DNA of 64,000 nucleotides, from the NCBI GenBank assembly GCA_018816865.1, contig JAHIUW010000032.1:62001-126000 (forward strand). The letters are read 5' to 3'. This DNA is from Pseudomonadota bacterium (GTDB taxonomy: Bacteria > Desulfobacterota > Desulfovibrionia > Desulfovibrionales > Desulfovibrionaceae). Below the pieces are notes generated by a model. It was not told the DNA's origin. It saw only the letters and a program-made list of their open reading frames with translations, and did no database searches. The translations under genes and the position numbers were made by a program. Shown one piece after another: positions 3,290 to 10,339 of the stretch (within the stretch, counting starts at the first letter, position 1; the number at the start of each line of letters is the position of its first letter).

Positions 3290-3681
3290 CACGTGGGTCC
3301 TAGGGAGATGGTTTTTCAGGGGCTTGTCTTGCCCCAGGCACAAACGGCTGGCAAGCCTTTTGGTCAATGATAGGCCGAGGGTCTAGTGGAGATGATTCAA
3401 CGAACCTTTTCCTGGATTGATCACAGGGCCATCCCGCTTCCGGTCATCAATTAGTGCGAAGGCGCAGGCTAGCATGGTTCACAGCCTCCTCGCAACGCTC
3501 ATCCCCCCGGCCTCACAACGATAAACAGCATCCGCAAGCGCAACATCTTCGCCGCTGCCCCCCCTTGACAGATTCAACAGAACGTGGATATCAGTTGCCA
3601 TGTTGTGATACTTATTTTAAAATCGTAACCAGCAATGCATATCGTCATTTTGCATTGCTCAAATTAAAGGAGGGACAATCC
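3290..3681. other. Intergenic region between tlyA and hydA
   Basis: A 392-bp divergent intergenic region. A perfect TTGACA hexamer at 3565-3570 has only a weak -10 candidate about 17 bp downstream, followed by an AT-rich stretch (about 3606-3625), a 9-bp inverted repeat (3631-3659) and an AAAGGAGG ribosome binding site at 3666-3673. No reading frame here looks coding. It probably carries the hydA promoter and its regulatory sites. Confidence 0.45.
3631..3659. promoter_or_regulatory. Inverted repeat in the hydA leader (operator or leader hairpin)
   Basis: Perfect 9-bp arms AGCAATGCA (3631-3639) and TGCATTGCT (3651-3659) are separated by 11 bp. The 20-bp centre-to-centre spacing (two helical turns) suits a dimeric regulator, and the repeat could also form an RNA hairpin seven bases before the first ribosome binding site. 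It does not match the CRP/FNR, Fur or Rex consensus sequences I know. Confidence 0.45.
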
Positions 3682-3759
3682 ATGTCTGGCTGCAGGGCCA
3701 AGAGCCCACCCGTGAGTCCGGTCAATCTGAGCCACATCATAACCGACAAGGAGGGAACC

Positions 3760-5016
3760 ATGCGAAAAATCGAAGGCGTTTTCTATCAGAACAATGCCCC
3801 CAAGGGCATCGATCCGGACAGCATCTTCTTCGTCCAGGTCGATGCCACCAAGTGTCAGGCCTGCGGCACCTGCGACGAGGTCTGCGGCACCGGGGCCATC
3901 CAATCCATCAATGACGAGGGCATCAGGCAGGTCGTTGATCCGGCGGCCTGCATGAACTGCGGCCAGTGCCTGATCAGCTGTCCCTACGGCGCCATCTACG
4001 AGGGCGTCTCCTACATCGACGAGATCTTCGAGAAACTGCGCGACCCCGAAACCATCGTGGTCTCGATGCCCGCCCCGGCCGTGCGCTACGGACTGGGTGA
4101 ATGCTTTGGCGCTTCCACCGGCAGCTATGTCGGCGGCCAGATGCATGCGGCCCTCAAAAAGCTGGGCTTCGACTACATCTGGGACAACGAGTTCACCGCC
4201 GACGTGACCATCATGGAAGAAGGCACCGAGCTCATCCAACGGGTCAAGGAACAGGGCAAACCCGACGCGCGCCCGCTGCCCCAGTTCACTTCCTGCTGTC
4301 CGGGCTGGGTCAAGTTCGCCGAGACCTTCTACCCGGATCTGACCCCCAACCTCTCCAGTTGCAAGTCGCCCATCGGCATGCTTGGCCCCCTGGCCAAGAC
4401 CTACGGTGCGCACGAGACCAAGACCGAAGGCAGAAAGATGTACACCGTGTCCATCATGCCCTGCATCGCCAAGAAATACGAAGGGCTGCGCCCCGAGCTG
4501 GCGGACAGCGGCTTCAGGGACATCGATGCCACCATCAATACCCGGGAATTGGCCTACATGATCAAAAAGGCGGGCATCGACTTCAACAGCCTGCCGAGCA
4601 TCCAACCTGACCCGGCGCTTGGCGCCTCCACCGGTGCCGCCACCATCTTCGGCAACTCCGGCGGCGTCATGGAAGCAGCCCTGCGTCTGGCCTACGAGGT
4701 ACTCTCGGGCAAGAAGCTGGGCGACCCGAGCATCAAGGTCGTGCGCACCCACGAGGGCATCAACGCGGCCGACGTGAACGTTCCCGGCTTCGGTGTCGTC
4801 AAGGTCGCAGTGGTCAGTGGACTCACGAATGCGGCCAAACTCTGCGACGAAGTGCGTGCCGGCAAATCGCCCTACCACTTCATCGAAGTCATGACTTGTC
4901 CTGGCGGATGCGTGAACGGCGGCGGACAGCCCCTGGATCCCGACGTCCAGGCCTCGCTGTTCCGCGGCACCATCGCCAGGATCAACCGGCGCTTCAGCGC
5001 CCGCACCGTTGCCTAA
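3760..5016 (+). CDS. hydA: Periplasmic [FeFe] hydrogenase, large (catalytic) subunit
   Basis: Protein of 418 residues from ATG 3760. It carries two [4Fe-4S] ferredoxin clusters (C32/C35/C38/C42 and C64/C67/C70/C74) and the three H-cluster motifs: TSCCPGW (177-183), MPCIAKKYE (233-241) and CPGGCVNGGGQP (from 380). It catalyses reversible H2 oxidation at the H-cluster. Architecture and sequence match the Desulfovibrio HydA type, which has no signal of its own and is carried out with the Tat-tagged small subunit encoded 12 bp downstream. AAGGAGG precedes ATG 3760. A second in-frame ATG at 3682, also with a strong AAAGGAGG, would add 26 residues unlike other HydA N-termini; both starts may be used. 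The hydEFG maturases are not in the window. Confidence 0.95.
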   Translation: MRKIEGVFYQNNAPKGIDPDSIFFVQVDATKCQACGTCDEVCGTGAIQSINDEGIRQVVDPAACMNCGQCLISCPYGAIYEGVSYIDEIFEKLRDPETIVVSMPAPAVRYGLGECFGASTGSYVGGQMHAALKKLGFDYIWDNEFTADVTIMEEGTELIQRVKEQGKPDARPLPQFTSCCPGWVKFAETFYPDLTPNLSSCKSPIGMLGPLAKTYGAHETKTEGRKMYTVSIMPCIAKKYEGLRPELADSGFRDIDATINTRELAYMIKKAGIDFNSLPSIQPDPALGASTGAATIFGNSGGVMEAALRLAYEVLSGKKLGDPSIKVVRTHEGINAADVNVPGFGVVKVAVVSGLTNAAKLCDEVRAGKSPYHFIEVMTCPGGCVNGGGQPLDPDVQASLFRGTIARINRRFSARTVA

Positions 5017-5028
5017 AAGGAGGATCAC

Positions 5029-5373
5029 ATGAGCAGTGTCGCCATCATGACCCGGCGCGGTTTCCTGAAAACCGCCGGTATTGTCGCCGGTTACTCTGTC
5101 CTGAGCTTTAACTTGACCAGACAGGCCTTTGCCTCGGCGATGAATTTCGTCGGCCTTCGGCAAAAGTCCGTCTACAAGGCCGACGCCGAAGTCTACAAGA
5201 TTCGCAAATCACAGGACAACCCCATGGTTCAAAAGATCTACAACCATGAGCACGGTTTCCTGCACGAAGGACCCTGCGGCCACATGTCGCACCAACTGCT
5301 GCACACCCACTACGTGGATCGCAGCGCCAGAGTGAAGGCCCTGAAGGACAAGGGCTTCAAGCTGGCCATGTAG
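5029..5373 (+). CDS. hydB: Periplasmic [FeFe] hydrogenase, small subunit
   Basis: Protein of 114 residues starting with a twin-arginine signal (TRRGFLKTAG, residues 8-17), a hydrophobic core and a probable cleavage site after AFA (about residue 36). The mature part is a short, cofactor-free belt that wraps the large subunit in Desulfovibrio HydAB, with the family motif LLHTHYVDRS. Its role is to export the folded HydAB complex through Tat and to complete the enzyme. The start has AGGAGG just upstream, 12 bp after the hydA stop, so the two form an operon. The C-terminus (KGFKLAM) is shorter than in D. vulgaris. Confidence 0.95.
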   Translation: MSSVAIMTRRGFLKTAGIVAGYSVLSFNLTRQAFASAMNFVGLRQKSVYKADAEVYKIRKSQDNPMVQKIYNHEHGFLHEGPCGHMSHQLLHTHYVDRSARVKALKDKGFKLAM

Positions 5374-5518
5374 CAACACCGACAACCTGCCAACCCGTAC
5401 GCAACCTGCCGGAAGGGCACTTTCTGACCCAAGGGTCTGCGCAACGGAATCCCGCTTCCCCCTCCCCTTTCCAGCTGCACACGCAATCAAAAATAATATA
5501 CAGATCGTAATATCATGC

Positions 5519-5547
5519 TTGACAAGCCTTTGCCCCACCGTTACCAC
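5519..5547 (+). promoter_or_regulatory. Candidate sigma70 promoter of the TM1266/TonB/ABC operon
   Basis: A perfect TTGACA (5519-5524) follows a run of A/T-rich DNA (about 5490-5515) that could act as an UP element. The -10 candidate 17 bp downstream, TACCAC (5542-5547), is weak. The site lies upstream of a palindrome and the candidate leader RNA, in the 359-bp gap after hydB. No gene is visible in this gap. Confidence 0.3.
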
Positions 5548-5552
5548 ATAGC

Positions 5553-5569
5553 ACGTTTTCCTAAAACGT
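5553..5569. promoter_or_regulatory. Perfect palindrome, candidate operator
   Basis: ACGTTTT-CCT-AAAACGT: two perfect 7-bp arms around a 3-bp centre, just downstream of the candidate promoter. Size and position suit the operator of a small dimeric repressor. It lacks a T-tract, so it is not a terminator. The regulator is unknown; the TM1266-like protein encoded downstream is one candidate. Confidence 0.4.
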
Positions 5570-5582
5570 AACACACACCAAC

Positions 5583-5713
5583 GGACTCGGCCTGCGGCAA
5601 GGATTCGATCTGAACCTCAGGGCGGAATTCGCCGCTCAAGCGATCCTTACCCCGTCGCTGCCAATCGGCCTCCGCCCCTTCTATGCTCCACGAATCCTTG
5701 CCGTAGCCGGTCC
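5583..5713 (+). ncRNA. Candidate structured leader RNA (riboswitch-like)
   Basis: A long closing stem pairs 5583-5607 with 5691-5713: 23 pairs, one of them a G-U, broken only by two single-base bulges; the inner 13 pairs (CGGCAAGGATTCG with its complement) are perfect. Inside are a 7-bp stem (5620-5626 with 5671-5677), which encloses a 5-bp hairpin (5639-5643/5655-5659) and a small hairpin (5660-5669), giving a junction-like fold. It ends 20 nt before the start codon of the TM1266-like gene, with the ribosome binding site just outside. I could not match it to TPP, cobalamin, FMN, SAM or other classes whose cores I know. A leader RNA controlling the uptake operon is the simplest reading; a chance or transposon-derived inverted repeat is the alternative. 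Confidence 0.45.
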
Positions 5714-5732
5714 AGCCATCCAGGGAGCTGAC

Positions 5733-5987
5733 ATGGACACGAACATCGGCGTCATTGGGATCATCCTCCAAGACAGGGCCAAAGCCGCCCCACTGGTCAA
5801 CGGCATCCTCACGGAATTCGGACACCTGATCATCGCCCGCACGGGCCTCCCTTACAAAGAACGGAACCTGAGCGTCATCTCCCTGATTGTGGAGGCCACC
5901 ACCGACCAGATCGGGGCGCTTACCGGCAAACTGGGCATGCTCGACAGCGTGAGAGTCAAATCACTGGTGGTCAAACCATGCGCCTGA
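5733..5987 (+). CDS. TM1266-type iron-only hydrogenase system regulator
   Basis: Small protein of 84 residues belonging to the family annotated as putative iron-only hydrogenase system regulator (prototype Thermotoga maritima TM1266), an ACT/NikR-C-like beta-alpha-beta fold. Typical features are the N-terminal GVIGIILQDR strand, the ILTEFGHLIIARTGLPY loop-strand and the VEATTDQIGALTGKLG helix. It has no DNA-binding domain of its own, so it may be a ligand sensor or a partner of another regulator. Family members sit with [FeFe] hydrogenase or its maturases. Here the gene follows hydAB but is translationally joined to a TonB receptor gene (10-bp overlap), linking hydrogenase status to the uptake system. 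Confidence 0.8.
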   Translation: MDTNIGVIGIILQDRAKAAPLVNGILTEFGHLIIARTGLPYKERNLSVISLIVEATTDQIGALTGKLGMLDSVRVKSLVVKPCA

Positions 5988-7996
5988 GCACACTTTCCAG
6001 ACACACCACCGCAGTGCTGCTCAGCCTGCTGGCCCTTTGCGCTCCCGGCCTCGCCCAAGCCGGTGACTCGCCCCTGCAACTCGACCCCATGGTGGTCACG
6101 GCGCGCGGCGTCCAGAGTTCCTTGTCCACCATTCCGGGTTCGGTGGGCATCGTGAATGAAAAGGAGATCGAACTGGCCCCCAAATCTAGCCTTGCCGATG
6201 CGGCCTCGCGCATCCCGGGTGTGGCCCGCACGGGCGAGTCTCCCTGGGGCCAGTCCCTGAATATCCGCGGTTTCACAGGCTCATCCATCATCTTTCTGAT
6301 CGACGGCAAGCGGGTCAACACCTCTCAGGATCTCAACGCCCAGATGGGCTTCGTGATGCCCCTGGATATCGAGCGCATCGAGGTCCTCAAGGGGCCGGTC
6401 AGCGCCCTGTACGGCACGGGCTCCATTGGCGGAGTGGTCAACGTGATCACCAAGAAAGGAGAGTTCACGACCAGCGACCAGATCCATGGGGAGCTGTCGC
6501 AGTCCTATTCGACCAACACCGAGGGCGGCGACACCTACGCCCGGACGACCTTCAACCAGGAAAACCTCTGGCTCCAGCTGTCCGGGGCCTTGAGGAGCCA
6601 TGGAGACTACACCGGTGGCGACGGCACTGAGATCCCCAACAGCCAATACGAGGACAAGCAGTTCCGCCTGGCCTCGGGCCTGCGCTGGTCCAACGCCCTC
6701 ATGAGCGAGGTCCAAATTCTGATCAGCGAGGCCAACGACATCGGTCTGCCGGGCGGCACTTCGACCATGCCCGCCGAAGCCAAGGTCAGCTATCCACGCA
6801 CGAGCAACGTCATGATCTCCCTGGACAACACCTGGGAGGTGAATGGAGACCAGCTGCAGCAACTCGAGTTGGACGCCTACTACATGAAGAACGACCGCAG
6901 GGTGCGCATCAAACAGATCGCCAATCCGGCCATCAACATGATCCGGCCCGGTGCCGACCACGAGACCTGGGGCGGAAAACTCCAAGGCCTGTTCTGGCTG
7001 GGTGATCACAGCCTGGTTGCCGGGGCCGATGCCTGGAACTGGCACATGGTATCCTGGAGGACCAAATTCCTGGCCTCGGGCGCAACCATCACCGACAGCC
7101 CAACCCCTAACACCACCATGACCTCAAGTGGCGTTTTTGTGGAAGACGACTGGGGCCTTGCCGAGGATTGGAACCTGAATCTGGGAGCACGGCTGGACAG
7201 CGTACGCATCGCCAACGGCGAGACCGCCACCATCGACGAAGGCACGACCCAAGACACGGGCTGGAACGTCCATGCGGGACTCGTCTGGCGCTTTGCCGAG
7301 GGCTGGAGCCAGAACCTGATCGCAGCCTCCAGCTACCGCGTGGCGGACATCATGGAACGCTTCAAGAACATCAACCTGGGCAGTGGCATCATCCTGTCTG
7401 GCAATCCTGACCTCGATCCGGAGCAATCCCTGCACCTGGAGTACGGACTGCGTTTCGCACAGCAAGAATTCTCGGCCTCGGGCTGCCTGTTCATGGACAG
7501 CGTCGAGAATTTCATCACCGAGGAGCAGGTCTCAAGCACCAGCATCCTCGTAAAGAACGTGGGCCGCGCCCGCCTCTATGGTGCCGAAGGCGAGGCCAGT
7601 TGGCGGTTCAGGCCCAACTGGAGCCTGTATGGCAACGCCGCCTGGCTGACCGGCAAAGACGAAGGCGAGGACGAGCCCCTGCCAGCCGTCCCGCCCCTCA
7701 ACGGTCTTGTCGGACTGCGCTTCGAGCACCCCAATGGATTCTGGACCCGGGCGGAAGGCCAATGGGCCGCGGGCAAGCATGTCGTCCCCCAAGGCACAGA
7801 CCCCGTTCCGGGCTGGGCCACGGCCAACCTTGCCCTGGGATTCGAAATCCAGGACAAGGCCCTGCACCACAGTCTCAGCTTGAGTCTGAACAACCTCTTT
7901 GACCGGCGCTACGTCAACTACCTGGCCAATGCCCGGGGCATCGAGCTGCTGGAACGCGGATTCAACGCCGAACTCGCCTACAGCCTGAAATTCTAG
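5978..7996 (+). CDS. TonB-dependent outer-membrane receptor
   Basis: Protein of 672 residues: a signal peptide (about 1-28, cleavage after AQA), a TonB-box-like segment DPMVVTARG, a plug domain (about 45-160, with LNIRGFTGSSIIFLIDGKRV and LKGPVSALYGTGSIGGVVNVI), and a 22-strand-type beta-barrel ending in the aromatic C-terminus AELAYSLKF. Such receptors move scarce ligands across the outer membrane using TonB-ExbBD energy. The plug resembles cobalamin/siderophore receptors, but the substrate cannot be read from sequence. The gene is followed 5 bp later by an ABC importer, so receptor and importer probably share a ligand. It overlaps the TM1266-like gene by 10 bp. Expressed downstream of the candidate leader RNA. 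Confidence 0.9.
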   Translation: MRLSTLSRHTTAVLLSLLALCAPGLAQAGDSPLQLDPMVVTARGVQSSLSTIPGSVGIVNEKEIELAPKSSLADAASRIPGVARTGESPWGQSLNIRGFTGSSIIFLIDGKRVNTSQDLNAQMGFVMPLDIERIEVLKGPVSALYGTGSIGGVVNVITKKGEFTTSDQIHGELSQSYSTNTEGGDTYARTTFNQENLWLQLSGALRSHGDYTGGDGTEIPNSQYEDKQFRLASGLRWSNALMSEVQILISEANDIGLPGGTSTMPAEAKVSYPRTSNVMISLDNTWEVNGDQLQQLELDAYYMKNDRRVRIKQIANPAINMIRPGADHETWGGKLQGLFWLGDHSLVAGADAWNWHMVSWRTKFLASGATITDSPTPNTTMTSSGVFVEDDWGLAEDWNLNLGARLDSVRIANGETATIDEGTTQDTGWNVHAGLVWRFAEGWSQNLIAASSYRVADIMERFKNINLGSGIILSGNPDLDPEQSLHLEYGLRFAQQEFSASGCLFMDSVENFITEEQVSSTSILVKNVGRARLYGAEGEASWRFRPNWSLYGNAAWLTGKDEGEDEPLPAVPPLNGLVGLRFEHPNGFWTRAEGQWAAGKHVVPQGTDPVPGWATANLALGFEIQDKALHHSLSLSLNNLFDRRYVNYLANARGIELLERGFNAELAYSLKF

Positions 7997-8001
7997 GACT
8001 C

Positions 8002-9000
8002 ATGATGAAAAAGAAACCGTTGATCACCCTGATTCTGCTCGTGCTGGGCTGCGCGGCCCTGGCCCTTGTTCTGGAACGATCCGGGGCCGGGGCCAATCCG
8101 CAACAGACGGCCCCGGGCCTGAGCTTCTACACCACGGGGGGGGCGACCACTCCCCAAATGCCGTTCTGGAAGGCCGTGGCCGACGGAACGTTGCCCGAAC
8201 TCGAGCACTTGGATGTCCATTACTGGAAGAACCTCGACGATCTGCGGGGCCTGATGCTGACCGGCAAGGGCGATCTGTGGCTGGGGCATGTCGAGGGCTT
8301 TGCCCAGGCCGCCATGCGCGGTGCACCGGTGCGCCTGCTGGCCGTCACGGGCTGGCGCAAGTTCAGCATCCTGGCCCGCGATCCGCAGATCAGAACCGTC
8401 GCCGACCTGCTGCATAGCCCCCCCGGGACCCGACTGGCCGTGACCCCTCCCCAGTCCCCGGCGGTCTCCATCCTGCGGGAGCTGGAGCAATATGGCCTGC
8501 CCCGGTTCGAGTACATCCCCCACGAGCCACGACAACTGACCCTGGAAGCCCTGCAAGGCGGCCCGGACCTCATCCTGGTGCCGGAACCGTTGACCACGGT
8601 CCTGCTGAACAAGGTCCCCGAACTGCATGTCGTGGCCCAGGTGGAGAAACTCTATGGCCGCTTCACCGGGCGGGAGCCCCTGCTGCCCATTGCGGGGATC
8701 GCCGTCAACGAACGGCTGGCGCGGGAACGACCCCAACTTGTGCTCAAGCTCCAGCAAGCCTTACTCCGGGCCGGAACAGAGCTGGCCGGGGACCCGGAAG
8801 CCGGAATCCAGACCCTGCCCGAAGAGTTCGGACGCTTCATCGGGCGGGACACGATTCGCGACTCCCTGGCGCGGGACCTCATCCTGGTGCGCCCCGCCGG
8901 GGAGTGCCGCGAGCTCGTGATTCAGTATCTGGCCCTGGTCCTGGCCCCCCATGGCGGAGCGGACGTCGGCAAGCTGCCCGACGATTTTTTCTGGCAATGA
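8002..9000 (+). CDS. ABC transporter substrate-binding protein (NitT/TauT/THI5-like)
   Basis: Protein of 332 residues with an N-terminal hydrophobic segment (about 6-24, LGCAALAL, possibly a lipoprotein box around Cys17). The remainder is a type-2 periplasmic binding fold of the NMT1/THI5 and SsuA group, with segments such as GKGDLWLGHVEGFAQAA and LLAVTGWRKF. Members bind nitrate, taurine, sulfonates, thiamine precursors and similar ligands; the ligand here is not evident. ATGs at 8002 and 8005 are both possible; AGGA lies just upstream. The stop overlaps the permease start (ATGA). Pairing with a TonB receptor suggests a bulky or scarce nutrient, unlike classical nitrate or taurine uptake. 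Confidence 0.8.
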   Translation: MMKKKPLITLILLVLGCAALALVLERSGAGANPQQTAPGLSFYTTGGATTPQMPFWKAVADGTLPELEHLDVHYWKNLDDLRGLMLTGKGDLWLGHVEGFAQAAMRGAPVRLLAVTGWRKFSILARDPQIRTVADLLHSPPGTRLAVTPPQSPAVSILRELEQYGLPRFEYIPHEPRQLTLEALQGGPDLILVPEPLTTVLLNKVPELHVVAQVEKLYGRFTGREPLLPIAGIAVNERLARERPQLVLKLQQALLRAGTELAGDPEAGIQTLPEEFGRFIGRDTIRDSLARDLILVRPAGECRELVIQYLALVLAPHGGADVGKLPDDFFWQ

Positions 9001-9758
9001 CCAGACGTCTGGCTCCTTACGCCTTCTCCCTGGGCCTGCTGCTGGCGGTCTGGACAATGGGCAGCTGGCTGGCCGGTCCGATGCTGGTCCCCGGGCCAGG
9101 GCAGGTCTTCCCTGAGCTGTGGCGACTGTGCCAGGACCCGGAGTCCTGGCGGATGGTGGGCCTGACCCTGTTCCGGGGGACATGCGGTCTGGTCCTGGCC
9201 CTGGTCGCCGCCCTGGTCCTGGCCATCCCGGCCGGGATGTTTCCCGGACTCCTGCGACTGGTAGGTCCGTTGGTGGCAGCCATGCAATCCTGCCCGCCCG
9301 TGCTCTGGATCAGCCTGGTGCTCGTCTGGGCCGGAACGGGCTCCGTCGTGCCGGTGACGGCGGTGTTCGCCTCCATCTTCCCGCTGCTGTTCGTCAACAT
9401 CGCCCAAGGTTGCCTATCCGTGGACCGACGGCTGCTGGCCATGGCCCGGTGCTATCGGGTGCCAGGATCGAGACGGCTGACCCGGATCATCCTACCCGGG
9501 CTGGCCCCGTACCTGCTGGCGGGCCTGGCCTATGCCCTGGCCGCCACCTGGAAGGTCGCCGCCGTGGCGGAATATCTGGGAACCGGGGATGGCATCGGGG
9601 CCCACATCTATTGGGCTTACCGCATGCTGGAAATCCCACGCCTGTTCGCCTGGGCCCTGATCCTGGTGATCATCGGCGTGGTGTTGGAGATCTGCCTCGT
9701 CGCCCGTCTGCGCAGGCTTGCGCAACGTTTCAACTCCAGCATCAAGGACAGCCCATGA
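8997..9758 (+). CDS. ABC transporter permease (NitT/TauT family)
   Basis: Protein of 253 residues with about six membrane spans and the BPD-type permease coupling (EAA-like) loop around ARCYRVPGSRRLTRIILPGLAPYLLAG. The start is the ATG at 8997-8999 overlapping the TGA of the binding-protein gene; the longer in-frame extension upstream lies in that gene and is rejected. It would form the inner-membrane channel as a homodimer with the ATPase encoded next, whose start overlaps this stop. Tight ATGA junctions through all three ABC genes indicate balanced co-translation. Confidence 0.85.
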   Translation: MTRRLAPYAFSLGLLLAVWTMGSWLAGPMLVPGPGQVFPELWRLCQDPESWRMVGLTLFRGTCGLVLALVAALVLAIPAGMFPGLLRLVGPLVAAMQSCPPVLWISLVLVWAGTGSVVPVTAVFASIFPLLFVNIAQGCLSVDRRLLAMARCYRVPGSRRLTRIILPGLAPYLLAGLAYALAATWKVAAVAEYLGTGDGIGAHIYWAYRMLEIPRLFAWALILVIIGVVLEICLVARLRRLAQRFNSSIKDSP

Positions 9759-10339
9759 TCCAGCTGCATCAGGTCGGCAAACACTTCGGCGGGGTCGAGG
9801 TGTTGCCTCCCACCAGCCTTTGCGTCTACGCGGGCGAATGTCTGTGCCTGACAGGCCCCTCGGGCTGCGGCAAGACCACCTTGCTGGAGATTGCGGCGGG
9901 ACTGATCCAGTCCGACGGCGGCGGTCGGGTCGAACTGGGCTCCGAGCGCGTAGCCTGCGCCTTTCAGGACGACGTGCTCATCCCCTGGCTGGATGCGCAA
10001 GCCAACATCACCTTTGCCCTGCCCGGAAAAGCCAGAGGCCATGCCGATACCGCCCACCACTGGCTGCAACGCTTCGGTCTGGCCCCCATAAGCATGCCCC
10101 CGGCCATGAGCGGCGGCATGCGGCGCAGGCTGAACTTGGCCCGAGCCTTTGCCAGCGGACCGCAGGTCCTCTTCCTGGACGAACCCTTCGCGTTCCTAGA
10201 CCCGGGATGGCAAACCGTGCTCGCCGCCCTTCTCCATGAAGCACTGGACAAGGGCACGGCCATCCTGATGGTCAGCCACCAACTGCGCGTCCTGGAGCAG
10301 TCCTTGCCCGGACTGGAATATCGCTACCTGGAACCCTAG
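9755..10339 (+). CDS. ABC transporter ATP-binding protein (short form)
   Basis: Protein of 194 residues, shorter than the usual 240-260 of NitT/TauT ATPases, yet all nucleotide-binding motifs are present: Walker A GPSGCGKTT, Q-loop FQDDVLIPWL, signature MSGGMRRRLNLARA, Walker B VLFLDEPFAFLD and the switch histidine in VSHQLRVL. The shortening comes from a trimmed C-terminus and compact loops, not loss of the catalytic core. It starts at ATG 9755, overlapping the permease stop, and ends before a strong bidirectional terminator. It powers the importer encoded by the two genes before it. Confidence 0.88.
   Translation: MIQLHQVGKHFGGVEVLPPTSLCVYAGECLCLTGPSGCGKTTLLEIAAGLIQSDGGGRVELGSERVACAFQDDVLIPWLDAQANITFALPGKARGHADTAHHWLQRFGLAPISMPPAMSGGMRRRLNLARAFASGPQVLFLDEPFAFLDPGWQTVLAALLHEALDKGTAILMVSHQLRVLEQSLPGLEYRYLEP

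Follow-up and report, generated by a model that had tools for sequence, protein, structure and literature searches.

Between the hydrogenase gene hydB and a gene for a TM1266-family protein, a Desulfovibrionaceae genome carries a gap of 359 bp in which a sequence-only reading had placed a structured leader RNA. Which part of this gap acts as RNA, if any does, and what would it control? We addressed these questions in the window, meaning the whole 64,000-nucleotide stretch of DNA that was analysed, and in related genomes. Window features are on the plus strand unless stated otherwise.

A long stem between hydB and TM1266

The genes hydA and hydB (3655-5373; PF02906, PF02256) encode the large and small subunits of an [FeFe]-hydrogenase. 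The gap runs from the hydB stop codon (5373) to the ATG at 5733 of the TM1266 gene (5733-5987; TIGR03959, 1.3e-30; PF21699, 3.5e-30). This protein, which has a relative of solved structure (2nzc), is a putative regulator of the hydrogenase system and a candidate effector of the RNA described below; family libraries name it only "putative regulator". The operon continues with a TonB-dependent receptor (5978-7996; Pfam PF00593, PF07715) and an ABC importer (8002-10339; PF00528, PF00005) made up of an unclassified protein, a permease and an ATPase. The permease and ATPase resemble those of sulfonate/taurine-type importers, and the protein at the binding-protein position (8002-9000) matched no Pfam or NCBIfam family. 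A Shine-Dalgarno-like AGGGAG (5722-5727) lies ahead of TM1266 and has a possible pairing partner, GCUCC, at 5685-5689.

Folding of positions 5583-5713 reproduces exactly the closing stem of about 23 pairs with two one-base bulges that had been read from the sequence. It is built of 4+4+15 pairs, both bulges are on the 5' side, and the interior is partly paired. The 5' arm occupies 5583-5607 and the 3' arm 5691-5713, ending 19 nt upstream of the TM1266 ATG, close before the gene as first described. The predicted energy is -65.6 kcal/mol; 200 dinucleotide shuffles average -40.5 (sd 4.1), and none was as stable (z -6.15), so that the stem is indeed hard to obtain by chance. The duplex between the 5' arm and the region of the 3' arm, taken separately, has -43.5 kcal/mol versus -26.0 when shuffled (z -5.9).

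Stem strength alone is no proof of an RNA because the minus strand of the region also folds strongly (z -6.7). Equal folding of both strands would suit a merely accidental strong stem or a DNA element, such as a transposon end or a protein-binding palindrome, as would the absence of the stem itself beyond the genus. However, the long stem occurs once in its genome and therefore represents no repeat family. A BLAST search of 149 relatives placed the 86% identity with a congener, G001, within 5549-5658 only, and also matched, over a short length, a sequence 130 nt upstream of TM1266 in another genus. The 3' part has diverged in G001, yet a 19-bp version of the stem can still form there, with a compensatory change from C-G to A-U (GGAC/GTCC to GGAA/TTCC). 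The 5' arm, moreover, coincides with a motif conserved across genera. These comparative data already disfavour an accident or a DNA element, which we regard as very improbable. A repeat or mobile element was ruled out, as the stem is single-copy and the window shows no enrichment of GGCAAGGATTCG, and a minus-strand protein (ORF 5541-5825) was dismissed after a Pfam search without a match.

A conserved hairpin overlapping the 5' arm

The comparison indicates that the evolutionarily conserved unit is a hairpin of about 46 nt overlapping the 5' arm, rather than the long stem. Its motif, CCTGMGGSRAGG-N-CTGANCCnnAGGG, emerged when DNA upstream of TM1266 was compared in 30 loci, and its core reads CCUGMGGSRAGG...CUGANCCnnAGGG. 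The hairpin consists of an outer helix, P1; a GG/CC helix behind a U-G-M/nnA loop; a 3x3 loop, S-R-A/G-A-N; and a second helix, P2, with a variable apical loop. The covariance model finds two copies in the window's genome and no others. Copy B (5584-5629; model R1, E 2.6e-8, 53.8 bits), which also belongs to the R1 training set, lies in the leader of the TM1266/TonB/ABC operon. Copy A (5398-5443; E 5.5e-6, 43.6 bits with the same model) begins 25 nt past the hydB stop codon, and this site after hydB is the position seen in most relatives too.

A MAFFT alignment of 30 copies supports a hairpin with three helices, and RNAalifold, run unaided on MAFFT alignments, returned essentially the same fold. 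Among 55 distinct copies the covariation score was 0.318 versus 0.174 in shuffles, and none of 500 shuffles reached it. Because the 55-copy alignment had been fitted to the model, P1 was tested separately on core-anchored sequences; with this alignment-free anchor, which uses the core only, none of 2000 shuffles matched the observed pairing. The compensatory changes expected in homologous leaders therefore exist, as does conservation of related leaders in front of TM1266 orthologues. As in riboswitches, a covarying, conserved RNA structure occupies the 5' leaders of functionally related genes.

No known class accounts for the hairpin, in agreement with what had been surmised from sequence. Rfam 15 gave no family match in the whole window, and over the leader, with E up to 5, none except one irrelevant 13-bit match; class-1 loci, as we call those with the motif above, and loci of the variant described below matched no family at gathering or relaxed thresholds. 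To our knowledge, no RNA-level control of [FeFe]-hydrogenase or of H-cluster assembly is known. We found no hydrogenase- or TM1266-linked riboswitch or leader RNA in the open-access literature searched, so that an earlier description of this RNA is possible. A term search of the main texts of three riboswitch surveys (PMC2864571, PMC8632094, PMC11109978) yielded no hydrogenase-linked motif; the orphan riboswitch candidates they describe are likewise unassigned covarying leader RNAs.

Association with hydrogenase genes in two phyla

At E <= 0.1 the covariance model matched 52 sites in 35 of the 149 related genomes, and 47 of these sites are directly after hydB or before TM1266. Copies within 260 nt past a stand-alone hydB are the commonest (32/52); 21 are within 330 nt upstream of TM1266, six of which also count as post-hydB. 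Three of the remaining five precede HydE/NifH/NifDK-like operons, the third (L198) assigned by ORF calls alone and less certain, and the other two are weak matches outside all these contexts. The operon behind the motif in L197 (1951-7913, minus strand), and also in L196/L080, encodes HydE, a NifH-like protein, two NifDK-like proteins and a NiFe-hydrogenase-large-like protein that stands alone and has CxxC motifs at both ends. In L194/L195, HydE-NifH-NifD genes are found inside a TM1266/HydF cluster.

A sample of 395 genomes from the phylum added three in which the motif stands ahead of TM1266, two of them with the order hydA-hydB-motif-terminator-TM1266. Among Syntrophomonadia (Firmicutes), 4 of 63 genomes have the class-1 motif, and the gene order in L131 is motif-TM1266-HydE-HydG-HydF. 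Searches of species genomes with a wide-gap exact pattern gave mostly chance matches, which were kept only if the model also scored them; a Verrucomicrobia match (L125) was discarded because it lies inside an ORF.

The sequence comparison defines a structured RNA family that accompanies [FeFe]-hydrogenase genes in two phyla, Desulfobacterota and Firmicutes, recurring in sulfate reducers and in remote clostridia-like bacteria. From these contexts, its regulon appears to be mainly [FeFe]-hydrogenase maturation (TM1266, HydE/G/F) together with hydAB. Control of a regulator/TonB/ABC operon, as first proposed, holds for the local operon, and the uptake genes look like a local variant of the regulon. 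Such an RNA, found at hydB and TM1266 in two phyla, offers a concrete handle on [FeFe]-hydrogenase control and on TM1266: the target is 45 nt long, its alternative structure is defined and a candidate partner is at hand.

A variant motif, CCCTGMTAANAAGG-N-CTGANTTAAAGGGG, is present at 27 of 30 syntrophomonad TM1266 loci, often on both sides of the gene, that is, ahead of it and just past its stop codon. The GG/CC helix is exchanged for AAC/GUU, AAU/AUU, AAA/UUU or GAC/GUC, and the variant has covariation of its own, with its variable pair occurring as CG, UG, UA, AU or GU. In two further Firmicutes loci it lies between hydA/B and TM1266 (L251) and at TM1266-HydE (L261). An intermediate form precedes TM1266-HydG, with a terminator, in another family of Desulfobacterota (L280). 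Weak variant-model matches near Desulfobacterota housekeeping genes were taken as chance, L280 being the only one that precedes TM1266, and a search of TM1266 loci without class 1 for a divergent variant-class motif gave nothing convincing. Several Syntrophomonadia have tandem copies about 40-50 nt apart ahead of TM1266 (L219, L236, L131/L238, L233, L242); those of L131, L233 and L242 pair one class-1 with one variant copy. In L131/L215 the terminator may be preceded by a short ORF that has a ribosome site of its own.

Competing shapes and the candidate effector

In the window the 5' half of copy B doubles as the long stem's 5' arm (5583-5607). Stem and hairpin are therefore mutually exclusive, with the 3' arm rivalling copy B for the same bases. 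The long stem, first taken to be the element itself, is real, but the conserved, sensor-like domain is the hairpin at 5584-5629 and the stem is its competing conformation. Comparable contests occur elsewhere. The 5' strand of the motif pairs significantly with a downstream arm in the window, G001, L014, L022 and L023, and in L190-L192 its 3' strand and the terminator's 5' arm pair with each other. The comparison also reveals excess complementarity in several class-1 leaders and in about half of the variant ones, where the 3' strand is significantly complementary to downstream sequence in 10 of 20 (p<0.05). These leaders thus resemble riboswitches in having an expression platform that excludes the conserved domain. 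About half of the class-1 leaders, including several to many from Desulfovibrionaceae, have no significant alternative pairing, and long-range pairing at post-hydB copies is at about chance level.

An intrinsic terminator separates the motif from TM1266 in 16 of 20 variant and 9 of 24 class-1 leaders. None was found in the leaders of the window or G001, where modelling suggests that the ribosome site is the likely target of switching, strongly in G001 and weakly in the window. In G001 the modelled probability that this site is unpaired is 0.59 with the long stem versus 0.03 without it; in the window the effect is weak, with accessibilities of 0.57 and 0.33 and the same opening cost.

We read the leader as a probable attenuator acting on the [FeFe]-hydrogenase regulon, and give this reading, irrespective of the effector, a probability of roughly 70%. 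The conserved hairpin and a downstream pairing would contest the same bases during transcription. When an effector holds the small hairpin, the downstream stretch would be free either to form an intrinsic terminator, as in many lineages, or to mask the ribosome site, as in the genus of the window, and the genes would be off. When the hairpin is released, one of its strands would pair downstream and the genes would be on; the 23-bp stem would be the on shape in the window. All the competing designs would agree in sign, a folded hairpin meaning that expression is off.

This scheme resembles the PyrR attenuators of the pyr operon, in which a short hairpin with a conserved internal loop recurs in the leader as well as around the gene for the regulator. 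There the hairpin competes with a terminator or ribosome-site hairpin, and a held hairpin means off. The hydrogenase hairpin is likewise short, contains internal loops, recurs around a regulator gene and competes with terminators or the ribosome site, and being held would likewise mean off. As with PyrR, the gene for the regulator is part of the operon under control; sites flank it on either side in the variant class, and class-1 sites precede TM1266. In contrast, sequence and genes differ, TM1266 is unrelated to PyrR and its RNA binding is putative, and copies also follow hydB. A second parallel is the HMP-PP (thiS motif) riboswitch, whose small, conserved RNA is closely coupled to an intrinsic terminator (PMC6478431); some post-hydB copies recall it by ending in a U-rich tail. 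The hydrogenase motif differs from it in consensus and genes and has no Rfam match.

What holds the hairpin? Among genomes with a stand-alone hydB, 30 have TM1266 and the motif, seven TM1266 only, two the motif only and seven neither (Fisher p 0.0016, ancestry ignored); both motif-only genomes are <90% complete. This constant co-occurrence, together with flanking sites that recall PyrR attenuators, leads us to favour slightly TM1266 as the bound factor; the invariant N, R, T and K residues of the protein do not settle the matter. Comparison with PyrR would make TM1266 an RNA-binding feedback regulator, a tentative identification to which we give a little less than even odds; the seven genomes with TM1266 and no motif count against the link. 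More broadly, and less securely, an RNA family absent from current lists could control [FeFe]-hydrogenase assembly, and TM1266 could bind this RNA and act as the sensor for hydrogenase maturation.

Direct binding of a ligand is almost equally likely: a metal or small molecule connected with H-cluster assembly could plausibly be the effector, about one chance in three. The RNA would then be a true riboswitch whose internal loops bind the ligand, which would stabilise the hairpin and switch the genes off, and TM1266 would be only a frequent neighbour. An H-cluster assembly product or intermediate, iron, or the compound that the TonB/ABC importer takes up are possible ligands. The strong conservation of unpaired-looking residues over two phyla fits this possibility, as do the competition with terminators and the fact that the products of downstream genes make or import related things. 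However, the RNA is just one simple hairpin, its apical loop varies, an operon can have several sites, others follow hydB, and motif presence tracks TM1266. The original suggestion of a riboswitch position stands for a structured leader and regulatory site; riboswitch in the strict sense, with direct ligand binding, goes further than the evidence supports.

A leader attenuator does not explain the post-hydB copies, as often, or at least sometimes, no close co-directional gene follows them (for example L205, L206, L209 and L210). Their predominance, and the P1 helices that in several cases run directly into U-rich tails (GGGCATTTTTTATTTTTTT in L126), would suit a protein-binding RNA site whose main task is to form mRNA 3' ends or to set the stability of hydAB and the cistrons next to it, with a secondary part for the copies in leaders. 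As the primary role this is unlikely, since copies before TM1266 are followed by terminators complementary to the motif. The attenuator and 3'-end uses may both hold, because post-hydB copies can lie on the hydAB transcript without a promoter-like site. These copies may serve as regulated terminators, or as structures at the 3' end of hydAB mRNA, and, more speculatively, would probably act there through the same effector as the leader attenuator.

Upstream of copy B, a TTGACA (5519-5524) stands before a perfect inverted repeat, ACGTTTT-CCT-AAAACGT (5553-5569), which is present in G001 as well (ACGTTTTATAAAAACGT). The region 5519-5569 possibly contains a transcription-factor site, which would control the genes at a further level. 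Repeats of the GTGTTA...TAACAC type lie upstream of other TM1266 genes that lack the RNA motif.
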